This document shows positions 42,162-52,764 of a stretch of DNA of 64,000 nucleotides, one piece after another. Under the pieces are notes generated by a model. The model saw only the letters and a list, made by a program, of their open reading frames with translations. It searched no databases and was not told the origin of the DNA. Position 1 is the first letter of the stretch; every line of letters begins with the position of its first letter. The stretch is from Xanthomonas cissicola (GTDB lineage Bacteria; Pseudomonadota; Gammaproteobacteria; Xanthomonadales; Xanthomonadaceae). The position numbers were made by a program, and so were the translations under genes. The stretch is from contig NZ_VZPL01000002.1 in assembly GCF_008801575.1 (NCBI RefSeq), positions 62,001 through 126,000 on the forward strand, read 5' to 3'.

Positions 42162-44225
42162 ATGCCCCCTTTTGCACACCCGTTCCGTCGTTCCGCGCTC
42201 TCGCTGGCCCTGGCCAGCCTGCTGACCCCTGCCCTGGCCATGGCCGAGGACGCTCCGGTCGCTGCCGATGGGCAGACCCCGCCCAGTTCGGACACACGCC
42301 ACGATGCCAGCCCCTCCAGTGGGCGCCATATCAAGGATCTGGACAAGGTGGTGGTCACCGCCAGCCCGTTGCGCGATGCGGCCGGTGAGTTGAGCCGCCC
42401 GGTGGAAGTGCTGGCCGGCGAGCGTCTGGACGAGGTGCGCAGTTCCAGCCTGGGCGAAACCGTGGCCAGCCTGCCCGGCGTACAGAGTTCCAACTTCGGG
42501 CCCGGCGTGGGCCGGCCGATCATCCGCGGCCTGGACGGCCCGCGCGTGGCAGTGCTGCGCGACGGCCTGTCGACCCAAGACGTGTCCACCGTCAGCCAGG
42601 ACCATTCCCCGGCAATCGAGCCGTTCCTGGCCAACCAGATCGAAGTGCTGAAGGGTCCATCGACGCTGCTGTACGGCTCCGGCGCCATCGGCGGTGTGGT
42701 CAACGTGGTCGACGGGCGCATCGCCGAGACCCCGGTGGACGGCTTCAGCGGCCGCGCCGAAGTACGCTTCGACGGCGGCGACAAGGACGGCAACACCGAC
42801 ATGTTCCGCGTCGATGCCGGCAATGGCAGCGGGCTGTCGATCCACGCAGATGGCGTGTATCGCAACCAGAACGACTACGACACGCCGAAGGGCCGCCAGC
42901 TCAACAGCTGGGTCGATTCCAAGGTGGGCTCGATCGGTGCGTCGCTGTCCGGCGATTGGGGTTTCGTGGGTTTGTCGGCATCGCGTTTCCGCGATAACTA
43001 CGGCAACCCGGGCGAGCCGGGCGACCCGTCCATCGGCGAGCGCGGGGTGTCGCTGAAGTTGCAGCAGGACCGCTACGACCTCAAGGGCGGGCTGACCGAT
43101 CCGTGGGGCGAAGGCAGCGCGCTGCGTTACAGCTTCGGCCATACCGATTACGCGCATACCGAATTCGAAGGCGCCGAAGTCGGCACCGTGTTCACCAAGC
43201 GGGCCAACGAAGGCCGCGTGGAAGCCTCGTTTACGTTTGGTGGCGGCTGGCAGACTGCATTCGGCCTGCAGGGCAGCGACAGCACCTTTCAGGCGATCGG
43301 CGAAGAATCCTTCGTGCCCAAGACCGATACACGCTCGCTCGGCGCATTCGCCGTTGCACGCAATAGTTGGGAGCGCGTCACCGCCGAAGTCGGCGCGCGC
43401 ATGGACAAGGTCAAGTACCAGACCGATATCGGCGTGGACCGTGATTTCACTCCGACCAGCTTCTCGGCCAGCGGCGGTTTCCGCTTCAACGAACAATGGC
43501 GTCTGACCGCCAACCTGGACCACGCCGAGCGCGCGCCGGCCGAAGAAGAACTGTTCGCCAACGGCCCGCATATCGCCACCCTCGCCTTCGAAATCGGCGA
43601 TGCCAATCTGAAGACCGAGAAGGCCAACCAGGCCGAGCTGGGCTTGAATTTCCAGAACGCATGGGTGGATGCCAAGGTGGCGGCGTACTACAACCGCTAC
43701 AACGACTTCGTCTACATCGTCGACACCGGCGGCCAGTGGTTCAACGAAGAAGACAACGACTTCCTGCCGATCCGCCAGTGGACGCAGGCCGATGCGATCT
43801 TCCACGGTTTCGAAGGCGAGGCCACCTTCCACCTGGCCAACAACGATAACGGTGCGTGGGACCTGCGCGTGTTCGGCGATACGGTGCGTGCGCGTCTGAA
43901 CGATGGCGGCAACCTGCCGCGTATCGCACCGGGACGTTTCGGTGCGCAGCTGCGCTGGGATGCCGACCAGTGGCGCGCATCGCTTGGTGCCACCCGCACC
44001 CTGAAGCAGGACAAGGTGGCAGTGAACGAAACCCCGACCGACGGCTACACCTTCGTCGATGCGCATCTGGCGTATCACGTGGACCACGGCAGCGCCGCGT
44101 GGGAAGTGTTCCTGGACGGCAATAACCTGACCAATCAGGACGCACGCGTGCACACCTCCTTCCTCAAGGACGATGTGATGCTTCCTGGCCGCAGCGCTTC
44201 GTTCGGCGTGCGCTTGTTCTTCTGA
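42162..44225 (+). CDS. TonB-dependent outer-membrane receptor, ZnuD-like (zinc)
   Basis: A 687-residue receptor with a signal peptide ending AMA (about residue 28). The plug (about 60-190) has the TonB-box-like VVVTASPLRD region, RPIIRGLDGPRVAVLRDG, and EVLKGPSTLLYGSGAIGGVVNVVDG. The rest is a 22-strand barrel ending in F. Near the C-terminus it has HTSFLKDDVMLPGRS, which I recognise from the ZnuD zinc receptors. With the Zur-like box and divergent MerC-family gene this fits zinc uptake across the outer membrane. An intrinsic terminator follows. Confidence 0.87.
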   Translation: MPPFAHPFRRSALSLALASLLTPALAMAEDAPVAADGQTPPSSDTRHDASPSSGRHIKDLDKVVVTASPLRDAAGELSRPVEVLAGERLDEVRSSSLGETVASLPGVQSSNFGPGVGRPIIRGLDGPRVAVLRDGLSTQDVSTVSQDHSPAIEPFLANQIEVLKGPSTLLYGSGAIGGVVNVVDGRIAETPVDGFSGRAEVRFDGGDKDGNTDMFRVDAGNGSGLSIHADGVYRNQNDYDTPKGRQLNSWVDSKVGSIGASLSGDWGFVGLSASRFRDNYGNPGEPGDPSIGERGVSLKLQQDRYDLKGGLTDPWGEGSALRYSFGHTDYAHTEFEGAEVGTVFTKRANEGRVEASFTFGGGWQTAFGLQGSDSTFQAIGEESFVPKTDTRSLGAFAVARNSWERVTAEVGARMDKVKYQTDIGVDRDFTPTSFSASGGFRFNEQWRLTANLDHAERAPAEEELFANGPHIATLAFEIGDANLKTEKANQAELGLNFQNAWVDAKVAAYYNRYNDFVYIVDTGGQWFNEEDNDFLPIRQWTQADAIFHGFEGEATFHLANNDNGAWDLRVFGDTVRARLNDGGNLPRIAPGRFGAQLRWDADQWRASLGATRTLKQDKVAVNETPTDGYTFVDAHLAYHVDHGSAAWEVFLDGNNLTNQDARVHTSFLKDDVMLPGRSASFGVRLFF

Positions 44226-44256
44226 CAGCGGTCTCTCTCCCCTGCTGAGTGGAAGG

Positions 44257-44281
44257 AAGGCCGCCTTCGGGCGGCCTTTTT
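44257..44281 (+). terminator. Rho-independent terminator of the ZnuD-like receptor gene
   Basis: Stem AAGGCCGCC, loop TTCG, GGCGGCCTT, then TTT, starting 31 bases past the stop codon. The stable UUCG-type loop, GC-rich stem and following T make a textbook intrinsic terminator. Confidence 0.9.
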
Positions 44282-44614
44282 GTGTGCGTTGCCGACCTAT
44301 CAGCGCCTCCTGCGGAGTGCTGCACTGTCCTGCAGTCGCGTTCGCCACTGCGTGGATCTGCACGGCACACAGGACGGGAGCTTGGTCGCGCTCCACGCAG
44401 GCACAGCCTTCTTCCAAATGCAGAAGCGCAACCCAATGCTGCTGCGTCGCACAACAGGCTGCGGCGCATCTGGGGTTAAAAGTTCATTAGCACTGCGCTG
44501 ACAGGGGGCGCAAGCGACGCGATAGCGCGGGCGCGCGTGCACTGGCTGCCGATGCCTGCACACCGCGGCGTGGCTCGGCAGCGTTCTTGCACTTCAAGAC
44601 AAGGAGCCTTGCGC
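44282..44614. other. Intergenic leader of the second TonB receptor
   Basis: 333 bases after the terminator. It holds the ribosome site AAGGAG (about 44600-44605) and an AT-richer patch (GTTAAAAGTTCATTAG near 44475-44490) that could be part of a promoter. No Fur- or Zur-like box was recognised in it. Confidence 0.4.
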
Positions 44615-46996
44615 ATGCGTTTTTCATCGCCCCGCTACACCCTCTCGCTCGCCGTCGCTGCCGCGCTGCTGGCACCTGACGGCCGCACGCAGACCGCCCC
44701 GCCTGCATCAGTCAATCAAGAGGCCACCACGCTGGATGCGGTTATCGTCAGCGGCACCGCGCGCTTCAAGGGCTTGGCCAAGCGCGACGCCAGTTTCTCG
44801 ATCACCACGGCCAGCCCGGAGCAGATCCAGCAGGCGGTGCCGCAGAGCACTGCCGACCTGCTCAAGATCGTGCCTGGCGTATGGGCCGAGCCCAGCGGTG
44901 GCGGCACCGGCGCCAACATCTTCGTGCGCGGCATGCCGTCGGAAGGCGATGCGCCGTTCGTGACCATGCAACTGGATGGCTCGCCGCTGTTTCCGCCGCC
45001 GACCTTGTCGTTCCTGGAGAATTCCACGCTATTCCGCGTCGATGACACTGTCGAACGCATGGAAGTGCTGCGTGGCGGCTCCAGTCCGATCTTCTCCAAT
45101 GGTCAGCCCGGCTTGACCGTCAATTTCATCCAGAAGAAAGGCCAGGACGAACCCGAAGGCAGCGTGCGCCTGACCGGCGGCAACAACGCATTGCGCCGCA
45201 TCGATGTGTTCAACAGCGGGCCGATGGGCAATGGTTGGTACTACAGCGTGGGCGGCTTCTTCCGCGAAACCGACGGCGTCCGCGACCCGCAGTTCTCCGC
45301 CGACAAGGGCGGCCAGTTCAGCGCCACGTTGAGCAAGCGTTGGGACAGCGGCGAGCTGTCGCTCTACGCGCGCCACACCGACGATAACAACGCGTTCTAC
45401 ACCGCGATCCCATTGCTCTCGCGCAACAACGGCAACGATCTTTCCAGTTTCCCCGGCCTGAACGCGCAGACCGGCACCCTGGTCGGCCGCGACTTCCGCA
45501 ATGTGGATCTGTTGGTCGGACCCAACGGCCAGACGTTGCGGCGCGATCTGGCCGACGGGCGCGGCGTCAACATCGACGTGTTCGGCGGCGAATGGAATTG
45601 GGAGAGCGGCGGCTGGACCGTTGCCGACCGCTTCAACGTGATCAGCGGCAGCGCGCCGACCTACGCGCTCTTTACCGGCGATACGCCGCAACGCCTGGGC
45701 GATGTCATTGCCGGTTACGGCAGCGGCGGCAGCGCCAGCTACACCAATGGCGGGGGCGCGGTGGACCCTAACCAGCAGGTACTCGAAGCCGGTTGGTGGT
45801 CGGTGGACAAGCGCCTGAATTCCTTTACCAACGACCTGCGTCTGAGCCGCGAGCTGTTTGCCGGCAATACGCTGACCGTAGGCGCCTATTACGCCAAGTA
45901 TTCGTCTGCCGATACCTGGTACCTGGGCAACACCATGCTGCTCACTGCGCAAAACAACGCGCGCCGCATCGATGTGGCGTTGGACGATGGCCGCCAAGCC
46001 ACCCGCCAGGGTTTCACCAGTACCGCGTTCTTGAACCTGCGCGCCAAGTACGACGGCGAAAACATCGCCGCCTTCGTTGCCGACGAGTGGGAGCTGAGCG
46101 AACGCCTGCGCCTGGACCTGGGCGCACGCTACGAGCGCCAGAGCGTCACCGGCGATGTGCACGACACCACGACCGTGGATCTGGATGGCAACCCGGCCAC
46201 GTTGTACGACAACGCCACCTCGCTGGCGCTGGCAACCACCCGGCGCATCGATCAGGACGATGAAGCGTTCTCGTGGACAGCCGGCCTGAACTTCACGCTG
46301 GACCAGAACAACAGCCTGTTTGCGCGGGTCAATTCCGGGGTGAAGTTTCCCGGCTTCGACAACCTGCGCGATGGGCAGGACCGCGTGCAGGACGTGGATC
46401 AATACGAGCTGGGTTTGAAGTCCGGGACGAGCGCCTACGACCTGTATCTCACCGCGTTCTACAACACCTTCAAGAACTCGCCGTTCCAGGCGTTCCTGGC
46501 CAATGGCGAGAACTTCACCGCCGTGGGCGATTCGCGCGCACGCGGCCTGGAAGTGGAAGGTGCAATCCGGCCGTTCGGCGGGTTCGAGCTGGCTGGCACC
46601 GGAGTGTGGCTGGACGCCAAGTACCGCAATTATCGCGAATTCACCGGCAACCAAGTGATGCGCCAACCCAAGCGCCAGTTCCGTATCACGCCCAGCTATT
46701 ACTGGATGCTGCCGTTCGGCGACCTCAAGGTGTTTGCCACCTATTCGTACATCGGCGAGCGCTTTGCGGACCTGGCCAACAGCCAGCGCCTGCCCTCGTA
46801 CGACATGCTGGATGTCGGCGCCAACCTGCATGTGGGCGAACATTGGGAAGTGACGGCCAGCGGCAGCAACGTCACCGACACGCTGGGCCTGACCGAAGGC
46901 AACGTGCGCGTGCCTGGCGCAGCCACCGGTGGTGTCTTCATGGGCCGCCCCATCGCCGGCCGGCAGTACCAGATGTCGGTGGCGTACCGCTGGTAG
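44615..46996 (+). CDS. TonB-dependent receptor, siderophore-type
   Basis: A 793-residue outer-membrane receptor starting MRFSSPRYTLSLAVAAALL, with AAGGAG nine bases before the ATG. A TonB-box-like TTLDAVIVSG is followed by a plug domain with STADLLKIVPGVWAEPSGG, GANIFVRGMP and DTVERMEVLRGGSSPIFSNGQPGLTVNFI. The barrel ends with QYQMSVAYRW. The layout is that of iron-siderophore receptors (FhuA/FpvA superfamily), but no ligand can be named. There are no nearby siderophore genes. A strong hairpin follows at 47016-47043. Confidence 0.9.
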   Translation: MRFSSPRYTLSLAVAAALLAPDGRTQTAPPASVNQEATTLDAVIVSGTARFKGLAKRDASFSITTASPEQIQQAVPQSTADLLKIVPGVWAEPSGGGTGANIFVRGMPSEGDAPFVTMQLDGSPLFPPPTLSFLENSTLFRVDDTVERMEVLRGGSSPIFSNGQPGLTVNFIQKKGQDEPEGSVRLTGGNNALRRIDVFNSGPMGNGWYYSVGGFFRETDGVRDPQFSADKGGQFSATLSKRWDSGELSLYARHTDDNNAFYTAIPLLSRNNGNDLSSFPGLNAQTGTLVGRDFRNVDLLVGPNGQTLRRDLADGRGVNIDVFGGEWNWESGGWTVADRFNVISGSAPTYALFTGDTPQRLGDVIAGYGSGGSASYTNGGGAVDPNQQVLEAGWWSVDKRLNSFTNDLRLSRELFAGNTLTVGAYYAKYSSADTWYLGNTMLLTAQNNARRIDVALDDGRQATRQGFTSTAFLNLRAKYDGENIAAFVADEWELSERLRLDLGARYERQSVTGDVHDTTTVDLDGNPATLYDNATSLALATTRRIDQDDEAFSWTAGLNFTLDQNNSLFARVNSGVKFPGFDNLRDGQDRVQDVDQYELGLKSGTSAYDLYLTAFYNTFKNSPFQAFLANGENFTAVGDSRARGLEVEGAIRPFGGFELAGTGVWLDAKYRNYREFTGNQVMRQPKRQFRITPSYYWMLPFGDLKVFATYSYIGERFADLANSQRLPSYDMLDVGANLHVGEHWEVTASGSNVTDTLGLTEGNVRVPGAATGGVFMGRPIAGRQYQMSVAYRW

Positions 46997-47816: not shown

Positions 47817-49628
47817 ATGAACTCTCTTCGCAGGCGACCTCTCGCGCTGTTGATAGCGGTCCTCCTGACCGGCGGCACGCCGCTGTCGGTACTTGCTGCC
47901 ACCCAGGCAACGGCTGCCACCACCCCGGCCACTACCAGCGCCAAAGCGAAAGCCACAGGCAACGACCCATTACTGCGGTACCAGTGGCATATCTCCAACC
48001 AGGGGCAGGCCGTGATCGGCGACAGCCGTCCGGTCGCTGGCGTGGACATGGATGTGGACATCCTGCATGCCCTGGACATTCGCGGCCGCGGCGTGCGGGT
48101 CGGCGTGGTGGACGATGGGCTGGAATTGGGCCATGAAGATCTGGCAGACAACATCCTGCCAAACGGGTCGCACAATTTCGGCGATGGGTCGCACGACACC
48201 ACGCCGATCGATCCGAGTAACTGGCACGGGACGTCCGTCGCCGGCATCATCGGTGCGGTGGGCTGGAATGGCCGCGGCGGACGCGGCGTGGCGCCAGAAG
48301 TGCAGCTGGCAGGATTCGACGTTTTTGCGCGCGATTCTTCGGTCACCGATGCCAGCATCAGGTATGCATGGGGCGATGGCCCGGAGGCGCGCAATATCGA
48401 TGTCTTCAACAACAGCTGGGGGTCGGTTGCCCCGTTCTACTTTGATTTTTCTGTGGAGGACCAGCGCACCTGGCAAGCATTGATGGGTTCGACACGTGGC
48501 GGCCTTGGCGGCATTTATGTCAAATCCGCTGGCAATAGCTTCCTGCGCTTCCTTGAGCCCGACGAGAACGGAAAACCCGTCAATGTCTGCAGCGAACAAT
48601 CGCGCGCATTGCAGGTCGGCTGCTCGCTGGCCAACATCGATCCCTTCGCAAATCTGCCCGGCACCATCGTCGTGGCCAGCCTGAATGCCAAGGGCACCCG
48701 TGCCTCGTATTCGTCCACAGGCTCTGCGTTGTGGGTTTCCGGTCTTGGCGGCGAGTTCGGTTTTCAACGCAAGTTCTATCCCGACGCAGCGTCCACCTTT
48801 TCCCCGGATTCGGCGCCCTATGCCTACGATCCGGCGATTGTCACCACCGATCTCAGCGGCTGCACAGCGGGCGAGAACGTCGAAGATCCCGACGTGGTCT
48901 ACAACGCATTGGATGGCAGCAAGTCGAAGATCGATGCGTCGTGCAACTACAACGCGATCATGAACGGGACCTCGGCCGCAGCGCCTACCGTGTCTGGCGT
49001 GGCTGCGTTGATCCTCAGTGCCAATGCGAGCCTGAGAGCACGCGACGTCAAATATATTCTTGCGACAACCGCGCGCCAGATCGACCCATGGCAGCCGCGG
49101 GTGGTCTACCAGGGCAGCGTGATCGATCCGGGCTGGATCACCAACGCAGCCGGGCACCGTTTCAGCAATTGGTACGGCTTCGGTCTGGCCGATGCCGCGG
49201 CCGCGGTCTACAAGGCGCGCTATTTCACACCGCTGCCGCCCATGCGTGATACCCAGTGGGTCAGCTCCACCGATGCGGCCACCCAGATCGGTGGCCCGGC
49301 GCGCCCGGGTAAGCTGCGCATCCGTGTGCAGCAGGCGATGAAGGTGGAAGCGGTGCAGCTGTCGCTGCAGTCGGCGCACAAGACGCCGTCCAACCTGCGT
49401 GTGGTGCTGGTGTCCCCGAGCGGAACGCGCAGCGTCGTCGCCACGCCGTTTTCCGTCCTGGATCCGGCTGCTTATGCGCAGACGGGGTTCTATATCGACC
49501 TGACCTCCAGCAATGCGTTTCTGGACGAGAAATCACGCGGCATCTGGACCCTGGAAGTGACCGACATGACCGATCCCAGGAGCACTGTCGCACTCAACGC
49601 TTTCAAACTTCGCATCGTGGGGCACTGA
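47817..49628 (+). CDS. Kexin-like S8 serine protease with P domain (module 1)
   Basis: A 603-residue secreted protease starting MNSLRRRPLALLIAVLL, signal peptide to about 28. After a short alanine/threonine linker the catalytic domain begins at about 50 (DPLLRYQWHISNQGQ, as in kexins/furins). The triad is D99 (GVVDDGLE), H137 (WHGTSVAG) and S386 (NGTSAAAPTVSG), with oxyanion N240 (SAGN). The last about 140 residues are a P domain (LRVVLVSPSGTRS ... GIWTLEVTD). There is no N-terminal propeptide of the usual 80-100 residues. The next gene, one base after the stop, encodes a small secreted partner that may supply this function in trans. Confidence 0.9.
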   Translation: MNSLRRRPLALLIAVLLTGGTPLSVLAATQATAATTPATTSAKAKATGNDPLLRYQWHISNQGQAVIGDSRPVAGVDMDVDILHALDIRGRGVRVGVVDDGLELGHEDLADNILPNGSHNFGDGSHDTTPIDPSNWHGTSVAGIIGAVGWNGRGGRGVAPEVQLAGFDVFARDSSVTDASIRYAWGDGPEARNIDVFNNSWGSVAPFYFDFSVEDQRTWQALMGSTRGGLGGIYVKSAGNSFLRFLEPDENGKPVNVCSEQSRALQVGCSLANIDPFANLPGTIVVASLNAKGTRASYSSTGSALWVSGLGGEFGFQRKFYPDAASTFSPDSAPYAYDPAIVTTDLSGCTAGENVEDPDVVYNALDGSKSKIDASCNYNAIMNGTSAAAPTVSGVAALILSANASLRARDVKYILATTARQIDPWQPRVVYQGSVIDPGWITNAAGHRFSNWYGFGLADAAAAVYKARYFTPLPPMRDTQWVSSTDAATQIGGPARPGKLRIRVQQAMKVEAVQLSLQSAHKTPSNLRVVLVSPSGTRSVVATPFSVLDPAAYAQTGFYIDLTSSNAFLDEKSRGIWTLEVTDMTDPRSTVALNAFKLRIVGH

Positions 49629-49629
49629 T

Positions 49630-50238
49630 ATGAAACCGATGAATCTTGCTTGCCTGCTGACGCTATCACTCGCCGCAACCGGTGCTGCCCAGGCAGCGCA
49701 ATACATGGACGCCAAGACCCTGCGTGCGGCAGCGACCGGCGTGCGTTTCAAGTCCGGGCAGGACATGTTCCGCATGCTGCCGGGCACAGTGGTGAGCGAG
49801 CACACGCCGCCACGGAACGCGACATCAGCGCAGCGATCGGCAGCCAAAGCCGGCATTACCGGTGCAGTGTCCCCCGGCGACAAGGTCGCCGCGCGCATCG
49901 GGCCGTATGCGGTCGTACTGGATGCGCCTGCGGGTGCTGCGCGCAGTCTTGCCACCGACGCCGAACGCCCCATCGCCGCTGCGGTGAATGAGCGCAACGG
50001 TCGTGTCGTGCTGGTCAACCCGCAGGTGAAGCTCACCGGCACGACGCCCGCCACTGCGAAATCGCTGGCTGCCAGCACCGGCGGAACCATTGCCTACACC
50101 TCGACGGTGGACGGCAGCGCAGTGATCACCTATGCATCGGTGGAACAGGCCCAGCGTGCACTACTCGGCCTGCAGCGCAGCAGCGACGTCGCGCAGGCGG
50201 CGCTGGTGGTCATGCAGGCAGTCATGCAACCGATGTAA
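49630..50238 (+). CDS. Small secreted protease partner (module 1), possible external chaperone
   Basis: A 202-residue protein with a signal peptide (MKPMNLACLLTLSLAATGAAQA). It is not a named family to me but is clearly homologous to the partner at 52168-52764: both have RAAATG ... FR..PG.VV in the first third, then an A.R...YA..LD strand, and later TTPA.A..LA..TGG...Y.S..DGSA.I.Y. The layout resembles the inhibitory prodomain or external chaperone of subtilisin-like proteases. The gene begins one base after the protease stop, so the two are co-translated. The C-terminal end (MQAVMQPM) could contact the active site, as in such chaperones. Confidence 0.75.
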   Translation: MKPMNLACLLTLSLAATGAAQAAQYMDAKTLRAAATGVRFKSGQDMFRMLPGTVVSEHTPPRNATSAQRSAAKAGITGAVSPGDKVAARIGPYAVVLDAPAGAARSLATDAERPIAAAVNERNGRVVLVNPQVKLTGTTPATAKSLAASTGGTIAYTSTVDGSAVITYASVEQAQRALLGLQRSSDVAQAALVVMQAVMQPM

Positions 50239-50245
50239 ATAGACC

Positions 50246-50269
50246 GGCCGCAGGCTGATCCCTGCGGCC
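50246..50269 (+). terminator. Hairpin between the two protease modules
   Basis: GGCCGCAGG, loop CTGATC, CCTGCGGCC: a perfect 9-bp stem, eight bases after the module 1 partner stop. There is no T run. It may terminate or attenuate transcription into module 2. Confidence 0.5.
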
Positions 50270-50345
50270 ATTCCACGTCGGGCGGCATGCAGGCCCATTT
50301 GGCCGACACCTGCATCTGCGTGCGCCCCATTACCGATACCATCCC

Positions 50346-52166
50346 ATGACAACCTCTCCCCTGCGGCGATTGCCTCTGCTGTGCGCGTGCCTGCTGGCGC
50401 TCGGACCCTTCTCGCTGACCGCCGATGCTGCGGCAACCGGTGTCGATGCACCGATCAGGACGACGCAGAACACACGCAATGCCAGCGACCCGTTGTTCCG
50501 CTACCAATGGCATCTGCTCAATCAAGGCCAGCCGGTGTTCGGCGACCAACGTCCACGGCCGGGCGTCGATCTGGATGTGGACATCCTGCACACGCTTGGC
50601 ATTCGCGGAGCCGGAGTCAAGGTGGCGGTCATCGATGGCGGGCTTGAGATTGCGCATGAGGATCTCGTCGACAACATCGTTGCCGGCGGCTCGCATAACT
50701 TCTTGAATGGTTCCAACGATCCGACGCCGCCTGCGGATGAAATCGACAATGACCACGGCACCGCGGTCGCCGGCATCATCGCGGCACGCGGATGGAACGG
50801 TCTGGGTGGACGTGGTGTTGCGCCGGAGGCGAGTGTGGCTGGCTTCAATGCACTTTCCATAGTCGATGGCAGCAAGCAGTACGTCGATATCCGTTACTCC
50901 TGGGGTGATGGCCCGGAAGCCCGTGCGATGGACGTGTTCAACAACAGCTTCGGCATCTCGACAGCGGTCTATCCATTCAGCGATCTCGACGAGCAGCGCT
51001 CTCTGGAAAAAATGATGCGTGCCCAGCGTGGCGGCAAGGGCGGCATCTACGTCAAGGCAGCCGGCAATGATTTCAATACGCTGCTTGATGTGGATGCACA
51101 GGGCAAGCTGATTGATCGCTGCAGCGACCAGACCCGGCAGCTTGGCGTCGCCTGCAGTAGCGCCAATATCGACAACCTCAACAGCCTGACCACCATGATT
51201 GTGGTCGGTGCGGTCAACGCCGACGGTGTGCGTGCGAGTTATTCATCGCCCGGATCCGCAGTGTGGGTGTCCGGTCTCTCCGGCGAATTTGGGTTCCAGC
51301 GTCGCTTCGACCCGCATCCTGAGACTTACAGTCCGTTCTATACACTGCTCGCTGCGCAGGGACCGCAGCCATTCTTCTCACCGGCGATCGTCACGACCGA
51401 CCTGAGTGGATGCGCGGCAGGCAATAACCGCGATCGCACGCGTGCGCCGCAGAACGCGCTGGATACCAGCCACTCAAAGATCGATGCCTCGTGCAACTAC
51501 AGCGCACGCATGAACGGCACCTCTGCCGCCACACCGACGGTTGCAGGCGTCGCAGCGCTGATGCTGGGCGCCAACCCGCAACTGACGCTGCGCGATGTCA
51601 AATACATCCTGGCGACGACGGCGGTGCAGGTCGATCCCCATCAGGCCAAGGCGTTCTACAAGGACGCCGTGATCGAGCCCGCCTGGATCACCAACGCGGC
51701 CGGCCACCGTTTCAGCAACTGGTATGGCTTCGGTTTGGTGGATGCAGCCGCGGCGGTGGAGCGTGCGATGCATTTCACTCCGCTGCCGGCGATGCAAGAC
51801 ACCGAGTGGACCGTCTATGACGGCGAGAGCAGCACCATCGGCGGTATCGGCTCGCCCGCGCGATTAGCGATCGACATCAAGCAGTCCTTCAAGGTGGAAG
51901 GCGTACAGCTGTACTTCGCAGGGACGCACAAGCATCCTCGCCAACTGCGCGCCGTGCTGGTATCGCCCAGCGGCACCCGCAGCACCGTGATGACGCCGTT
52001 CTCCACGCTCGACCCGGGTGATGGCTTCGTGGTCTTCCTGACCTCCAGCAATGCCTTCCTGGACGAGGCGGCAGCCGGTCGCTGGACACTGGAGGTGGAC
52101 GACATGCTCGCCGACAACGGCAAGGAACAACTGCAGGAATTCGAAATGCGCGTGGTGGGCCACTGA
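50346..52166 (+). CDS. Kexin-like S8 serine protease with P domain (module 2)
   Basis: A 606-residue paralogue of the module 1 protease, with a signal peptide to about 28 (MTTSPLRRLPLLCACLLALG). The catalytic domain begins DPLFRYQWHLLNQGQ (about 48). Triad: D97 (AVIDGGLE), H137 (NDHGTAVAG) and S393 (NGTSAATPTVAG), oxyanion near N241 (KAAGND). Cysteines at about 259, 270, 356 and 383 are shared with module 1. The P domain ends RWTLEVDD ... RVVGH, the same last residues as module 1. No N-terminal propeptide is present. The downstream small partner follows after one base. Confidence 0.9.
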   Translation: MTTSPLRRLPLLCACLLALGPFSLTADAAATGVDAPIRTTQNTRNASDPLFRYQWHLLNQGQPVFGDQRPRPGVDLDVDILHTLGIRGAGVKVAVIDGGLEIAHEDLVDNIVAGGSHNFLNGSNDPTPPADEIDNDHGTAVAGIIAARGWNGLGGRGVAPEASVAGFNALSIVDGSKQYVDIRYSWGDGPEARAMDVFNNSFGISTAVYPFSDLDEQRSLEKMMRAQRGGKGGIYVKAAGNDFNTLLDVDAQGKLIDRCSDQTRQLGVACSSANIDNLNSLTTMIVVGAVNADGVRASYSSPGSAVWVSGLSGEFGFQRRFDPHPETYSPFYTLLAAQGPQPFFSPAIVTTDLSGCAAGNNRDRTRAPQNALDTSHSKIDASCNYSARMNGTSAATPTVAGVAALMLGANPQLTLRDVKYILATTAVQVDPHQAKAFYKDAVIEPAWITNAAGHRFSNWYGFGLVDAAAAVERAMHFTPLPAMQDTEWTVYDGESSTIGGIGSPARLAIDIKQSFKVEGVQLYFAGTHKHPRQLRAVLVSPSGTRSTVMTPFSTLDPGDGFVVFLTSSNAFLDEAAAGRWTLEVDDMLADNGKEQLQEFEMRVVGH

Positions 52167-52167
52167 C

Positions 52168-52764
52168 ATGAAAACTTCTCTGATCACACTGCTGTGCGTC
52201 GTTGCCGCCAGCATGTCTGCACCCGTCTCGGCACAGGTGTTCGATCGCGCCCGCCTGCGGGCTGCCGCAACCGGGCAGACCGTTGTGGTGGACCGGGCCA
52301 GCTTCCGGCTGATTCCAGGAGCAGTGGTACGGCTGGCCGACGCCACGCGCGGCGCTGCCGCCACGCAAACGCTAACAAGCACGCAGACACGCACCAACGC
52401 ACCGGTTGCCCGCGTCGATCGCTACGCGATCTATCTCGACATCAGCGGCGCGGCGGACGCAGTCGCGCGCACCACGCGCAGCGAACCATCGGCGACCGTC
52501 GTGGCCGCGCTGGAAACGCGTAGCGGCCAGCCGGCATTGCTCGGTGCTTCGATCAAATTGTTCGATACCACGCCAGCCATCGCGCGTGCACTGGCCACGC
52601 GTACGGGCGGCAGGTTGCTCTATGCCTCCGCCACCGACGGCAGCGCGATGATCGGCTACGACTCGGCGATGACGGCATTGGACAATTGCCGCCAGCTGCA
52701 AGGCAGCCACGGCGTGGGAGCGATCAAGCCGGAAGTGATCTTCCCGGCGGCACGGCCGTTGTGA
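52168..52764 (+). CDS. Small secreted protease partner (module 2), possible external chaperone
   Basis: A 198-residue protein starting MKTSLITLLCVVAASMSAPVSAQ, with a clear signal peptide. It aligns along most of its length with the module 1 partner: LRAAATG, FRLIPGAVV, ARVDRYAIYLD, TTPAIARALATRTGG and YASATDGSAMIGY. The C-terminal ends differ most (AIKPEVIFPAARPL here), which would be expected if each end is matched to its own protease. It starts one base after the protease stop, as in module 1. No enzyme motif is visible. An external intramolecular-chaperone-like role is inferred from the parallel arrangement and from the known Aeromonas sobria ASP/ORF2 pair. Confidence 0.75.
   Translation: MKTSLITLLCVVAASMSAPVSAQVFDRARLRAAATGQTVVVDRASFRLIPGAVVRLADATRGAAATQTLTSTQTRTNAPVARVDRYAIYLDISGAADAVARTTRSEPSATVVAALETRSGQPALLGASIKLFDTTPAIARALATRTGGRLLYASATDGSAMIGYDSAMTALDNCRQLQGSHGVGAIKPEVIFPAARPL

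Follow-up and report, generated by a model that had tools for sequence, protein, structure and literature searches.

Tandem kexin-like proteases and their putative detached-prodomain partners in Xanthomonas

Two protease-partner modules in Xanthomonas cissicola

The window considered here, a 64,000-nucleotide stretch of the Xanthomonas cissicola genome (contig NZ_VZPL01000002.1, positions 62,001 to 126,000), contains two consecutive modules, each formed by a gene for an exported S8 subtilase with a C-terminal P domain and a gene for a small exported protein, referred to as its partner. The features in window positions are:

47817-49628, + strand: protease A, 603 amino acids, exported S8 subtilase with a C-terminal P domain at 49344-49616
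49630-50238, + strand: partner A, exported protein of 202 amino acids with the tail VVMQAVMQPM
50246-50269, + strand: strong, perfect 9-base-pair guanine-cytosine hairpin (GGCCGCAGG...CCTGCGGCC) directly 3' of partner A, with no T run
50346-52166, + strand: protease B, 606 amino acids, same architecture as protease A, P domain at 51894-52151
52168-52764, + strand: partner B, exported protein of 198 amino acids with the tail PEVIFPAARPL

At both junctions a single base separates the stop codon of the protease from the ATG of the partner (TGA-T-ATG in A, TGA-C-ATG in B). Both proteases match Peptidase_S8 (2.5e-43 for A, 5.2e-36 for B) and P_proprotein (2.4e-18 and 9.5e-15) above the curated cut-offs and carry a full catalytic triad, namely D99, H137 and S386 in protease A and D97, H137 and S393 in protease B, where DG replaces DD at the catalytic Asp. 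They are 57% identical and account for the only two P-domain matches of their genome, in which Peptidase_S8 has 17 matches, while the partners are 35% identical (E 4e-23) and are likewise the only two proteins of the genome retrieved by partner searches. The first-pass annotation of this DNA had described two S8 proteases with triad and P domain, the TGATATG and TGACATG junctions, homologous exported partners of 198-202 residues and the differing partner ends MQAVMQPM and IFPAARPL, all of which was confirmed.

The same annotation held that the catalytic domain begins at about residue 50 without a propeptide, and this is borne out by the position of the mature-domain anchor DPLxRYQWH, which is found 49 (protease A) and 47 (protease B) residues after the start codon, leaving about 20 residues behind the signal peptide (signal peptides of proteases and partners were judged by eye). 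The anchor was located in 69 of the 72 proteases of the set, at a median distance of 49 residues from the start, and exceeds 80 residues in five (L041_C, L086_1869, L087_10175, L096 and L081); in the first four of these the start was probably called too far upstream. Pseudoalteromonas L081, as well as L083, in which the anchor was not found, have truly longer N-termini, without a Pfam prodomain. By contrast, the S8 proteases L108 and L109 of the X. cissicola genome, which share the S8 fold and export with the window proteases and carry PPC domains where the latter have P domains, show a stretch of about 105 residues from the signal peptide to their anchor PND. Since Pfam finds no prodomain in L108 and L109 either, this contrast is one of length and look; the partner profile A3 gave no hhalign match to these N-terminal stretches, a comparison comprising two sequences only. 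L108 and L109 belong to a tandem of three further S8 proteases (L108-L110) on contig C1.

The closest protease in PDB to both A and B is ASP, the kexin-like protease of Aeromonas sobria, which has been cited as the exception among subtilases in lacking a built-in propeptide (PMC9549277, in part). According to the available part of another report, the downstream protein ORF2 is needed for maturation to active ASP, its C-terminal residues lie around the ASP catalytic site, and ASP-like operons are named in four other genera (PMC5638518). The system of ASP and its external chaperone ORF2 (PDB 3hjr, 3wqb and 2mk4) likewise combines an S8 and P-domain protease without a prodomain with a small partner gene just downstream, and both window partners are predicted to adopt the ORF2 fold. 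In partner A the model comprises an N-terminal extension (about residues 25-56), a low-confidence linker and a ferredoxin-like, prodomain-type body (about 116-195), partner B has the same predicted fold, and ORF2 was the best match of both models, ranking first among 350,542 chains.

Thus far the comparison supports the earlier proposal that the ASP/ORF2 principle is present twice in a row, with triad and P domain, no prodomain, an exported downstream partner and a predicted ORF2 fold in each module. Unlike ORF2, however, the window partners are not recognisable by sequence: no Pfam family matched them, no NCBIfam model passed its cut-off, and ORF_2_N (PF18492), which detects its positive controls in Vibrio L080 (1.1e-25) and Pseudoalteromonas L081 (1.2e-9), gave no match. 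Fold searches alone reached ORF2, as phmmer with both partners and the profiles A1 and A3 did not find it in PDB. The fervidolysin-type N-terminal prodomain PF22148 is above its cut-off in the bodies of two partners of genus g16 (L082 and L090), homologous to the window partners, but it neither matches the latter nor is fused to their proteases. Also in contrast to ASP/ORF2, the Xanthomonas modules stand two or more in tandem, the window partners end in Met or Leu rather than Lys (Q-P-M in partner A versus Q-P-K in ORF2 according to the accessible text of PMC5638518), and the window proteases seem to lack the ASP stretch around Arg566, before which the alignment of protease A ends. Kexin and furin (PCSK) differ in carrying a fused N-terminal prodomain, which is absent from proteases A and B, the window modules having a separate gene after the protease.

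Distribution and co-inheritance of the pairs

A search for other genomes with the same pair was successful: of 34 further Xanthomonas genomes, 27 contain at least one protease-partner pair, so that the arrangement is not due to chance and is not peculiar to the X. cissicola genome studied. The protease is found in 28 of 35 Xanthomonas genomes, X. cissicola included, and each of these 28 has at least one intact partner gene. From their 29 loci 47 open-frame proteases were taken, excluding broken copies in L025, L027, L028, L029, L034, L039, L042 and L044 and including L036_C, which is without its 5' part. The own partner lies directly downstream in 42 of the 47, with exactly one base between the genes in 41 (in L051 they overlap), and all 13 Xanthomonas genomes with open proteases A and B keep both partners. 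The second module of X. nasturtii (L030 7211-9698, + strand), designated X, has diverged widely from both A and B, and its partner ends in Arg. A candidate remnant in genome G005 (E 7.7e-4; stretch L052) gave no match on re-search.

Within a sample of 297 genomes of the family, 31 have a partner match, and the protease occurs in three further genera, g16 (8 genomes), g290 (3) and g298 (2), where all 25 proteases examined have their own partner, four of them having been found via that partner. The two g298 genomes hold six and eight pairs. These include three pairs in direct tandem in L085 and, in L087, a tandem of three accompanied by a further pair about 4 kilobases (kb) off, with partners differing in their C-terminal residues within one locus. 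More distantly, Vibrio L080 and Pseudoalteromonas L081, both from plasmid-collection records, carry the previously described type of system, in which the protease is accompanied by an ORF_2_N partner. In the likewise distant gammaproteobacteria L083 and L084 the protease gene is followed by a small open reading frame (ORF), which in L084 passes PF22148. Class-wide searches of 369 genomes, X. cissicola included, retrieved the partner in two and the protease in four, counts that do not show absence elsewhere because few candidates were scored per genome.

Protease and partner distances correlate at 0.913 over 63 pairs, a value reached by none of 2000 within-genome partner shuffles and, for g298 alone, by two of 14400 orders, bearing in mind that physical linkage alone can produce such a correlation. 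In trees built from 36 of these 63 pairs, protease and partner fall into matching groups (A, B, g290, g16 and g298); g298 is weakly supported in the partner tree (81/76), and g290 branches with B among the proteases, its placement among the partners being unresolved. In the gene pairs compared, the ratio of nonsynonymous to synonymous substitution rates (dN/dS) was 0.26-0.44 for partners and 0.10-0.27 for A or B proteases. Met is the last residue in 21 of 22 partner A tails and Leu in all 19 partner B tails, while partners end in K in g16, in L in g290 and in L, N, W, M, R, Y or T in g298; the last three residues are conserved, yet they are not the most conserved part of the protein (90th and 74th percentile).

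Proposed mode of action and alternatives

Taken together, the gene anatomy, the missing prodomain, the ORF2-like predicted fold and the co-inheritance of the pairs make it very likely that each module encodes a secreted kexin/furin-type protease whose prodomain is a separate gene product, serving in trans as folding helper and plug. Since stop and start lie one base apart, both proteins of a module most likely derive from a single message and should be made at a similar dose. Both would be exported by Sec signals, the prodomain-like body of the partner would bind the catalytic domain in the periplasm and template its folding, and the C-terminal tail would plug the active site until removed, as reported for ORF2/ASP. 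The two modules would go back to an ancient duplication of protease and partner together, after which partner and tail diverged faster than the protease.

On account of the tails it is plausible, judging from sequence, that each partner fits its own enzyme only. A simple rule by which an S1 Asp accompanies a Lys tail and is absent with Met or Leu tails was nevertheless rejected after alignment by eye to furin, with its S1 residue Asp258 and its Asp306 as reference points. The residue aligned to Asp258 is not Asp; the Asp aligned to Asp306 is kept by enzymes whose partner tail ends in K, L, Y, N, T or R and by most of those with an M tail, and it is lacking in two W-tailed g298 enzymes, M-tailed L086_1869 and L043_A, and the distant L080, L081 and L084. 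Because this Asp is retained it argues, if anything, against Met or Leu as the preferred P1 residue.

The first-pass annotation had also suggested dedicated partners, and it remains true that partners travel with their own protease and that tails are fixed within groups and different between them. Two sets of genes, on the other hand, weigh against strict pairing. Five of the 47 Xanthomonas proteases have no own partner, four of them full-length (L027_A, L040_C, L041_C and L045_C), the fifth being L036_C; L027_A has a truncated partner joined to a fragment of protease B, and the others are of a third type, C. Moreover, four g290 partners (L099-L102), with their own signal peptide and the conserved tail VIQAFDERN or VIQSVDERN, are without a relative of these proteases in the surrounding 5 kb or so, and three of these four genomes have no P-domain match. 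The altered loci of two X. arboricola pathovars and one stand-alone partner are located as follows:

L040, 5290-7101, - strand: protease B with partner-derived export signal
L041, 9011-10822, + strand: protease B with partner-derived export signal
L099, 4619-5314, - strand: stand-alone partner

In L102, a divergent M4 metallopeptidase adjoins the stand-alone partner.

In L040 and L041 the opening 112 bases of protease B can be aligned with the 5' end of the partner A gene at that locus (local scores of 80 and 85, against 18-27 in six other loci), so that partner C was probably lost through a deletion which supplied protease B with the export signal of a partner. Protease C remains open with its triad, and the C proteases of L040, L041 and L045, which adjoin a related A pair, show dN/dS of 0.13-0.22 among themselves and with L036_C, similar to the 0.13-0.27 of the A proteases of the same genomes; protease C of L040 and L041 may thus borrow partner A. 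Such cases lend some weight to the idea that partners are unspecific and that one per genome is enough, which is possible though it falls short of an even chance: the partner losses may be too young for decay to show, both partners are kept wherever A and B are open, tails differ between groups, and the real pairing is unmatched by any within-genome shuffle.

Prodomain-like proteins also occur alone as inhibitors (I9-type), and together with the protease-less partners and partnerless proteases this raises the question whether the partner is an inhibitor or immunity protein only, shielding the producing cell from a protease that folds unaided. This is improbable, given that the protease has no other prodomain, that every protease-bearing Xanthomonas genome retains an intact partner, and that active protease reportedly depends on the partner in the most closely related system (PMC5638518). 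A merely shared secretion route with unrelated functions would agree with a partner that has no named family and no link to ORF2 by sequence alone; it is very hard to reconcile with the first rank of ORF2 for both partner models, the proximity of both proteases to ASP and the prodomain Pfam matches of partner relatives, and is accordingly given almost no credence.

The kind of system proposed here, a protease with a detached prodomain, has precedents in Aeromonas and a small number of other genera; the Xanthomonas branch differs in having a partner family without a sequence link to ORF2, tandem diversified modules, and partner-less or protease-less derivatives. Among the matches listed in the open-access literature (listings and the starts of abstracts), none linked Xanthomonas to ASP/ORF2, and the portion of the X. 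citri secretome paper available contained nothing assignable to this locus. Two candidate relatives were dropped, the bacteriocin protease Bcn-B of X. perforans being of trypsin/Arg-C type (PMC7259588, in part) and the P-domain peptidase of Lysobacter soli an M12 metallopeptidase (PMC12285256, in part). It may be speculated, with considerable reserve, that Xanthomonas and three sister genera multiply and diversify cognate pairs of kexin-like enzyme and detached prodomain (three in direct tandem, up to eight per genome), that the C-terminal residue of the partner (K, M, L, W, Y, R, N or T) is a key fitting the enzyme, and that some lineages use the freed prodomain alone as a secreted protease inhibitor. 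If so, what ASP represents as an exception would be a class that has diversified within the Xanthomonas family, and the duplicates, partner losses, partner-protease fusion and partner-only genomes would form a panel for studying prodomain-enzyme matching, the conditions under which enzymes can share a prodomain and its conversion into a free inhibitor.

Hairpin and upstream genes

The hairpin at 50246-50269 is perhaps a partial terminator or a messenger RNA stabiliser between the modules. Among 12 loci folded, it is seen behind partner A in all nine with two modules, with a paired change in L043, and in none of the three where a third protease separates A from B. Immediately upstream of the protease modules, two TonB-dependent receptor-like ORFs were recognised by eye at 42162-46996.
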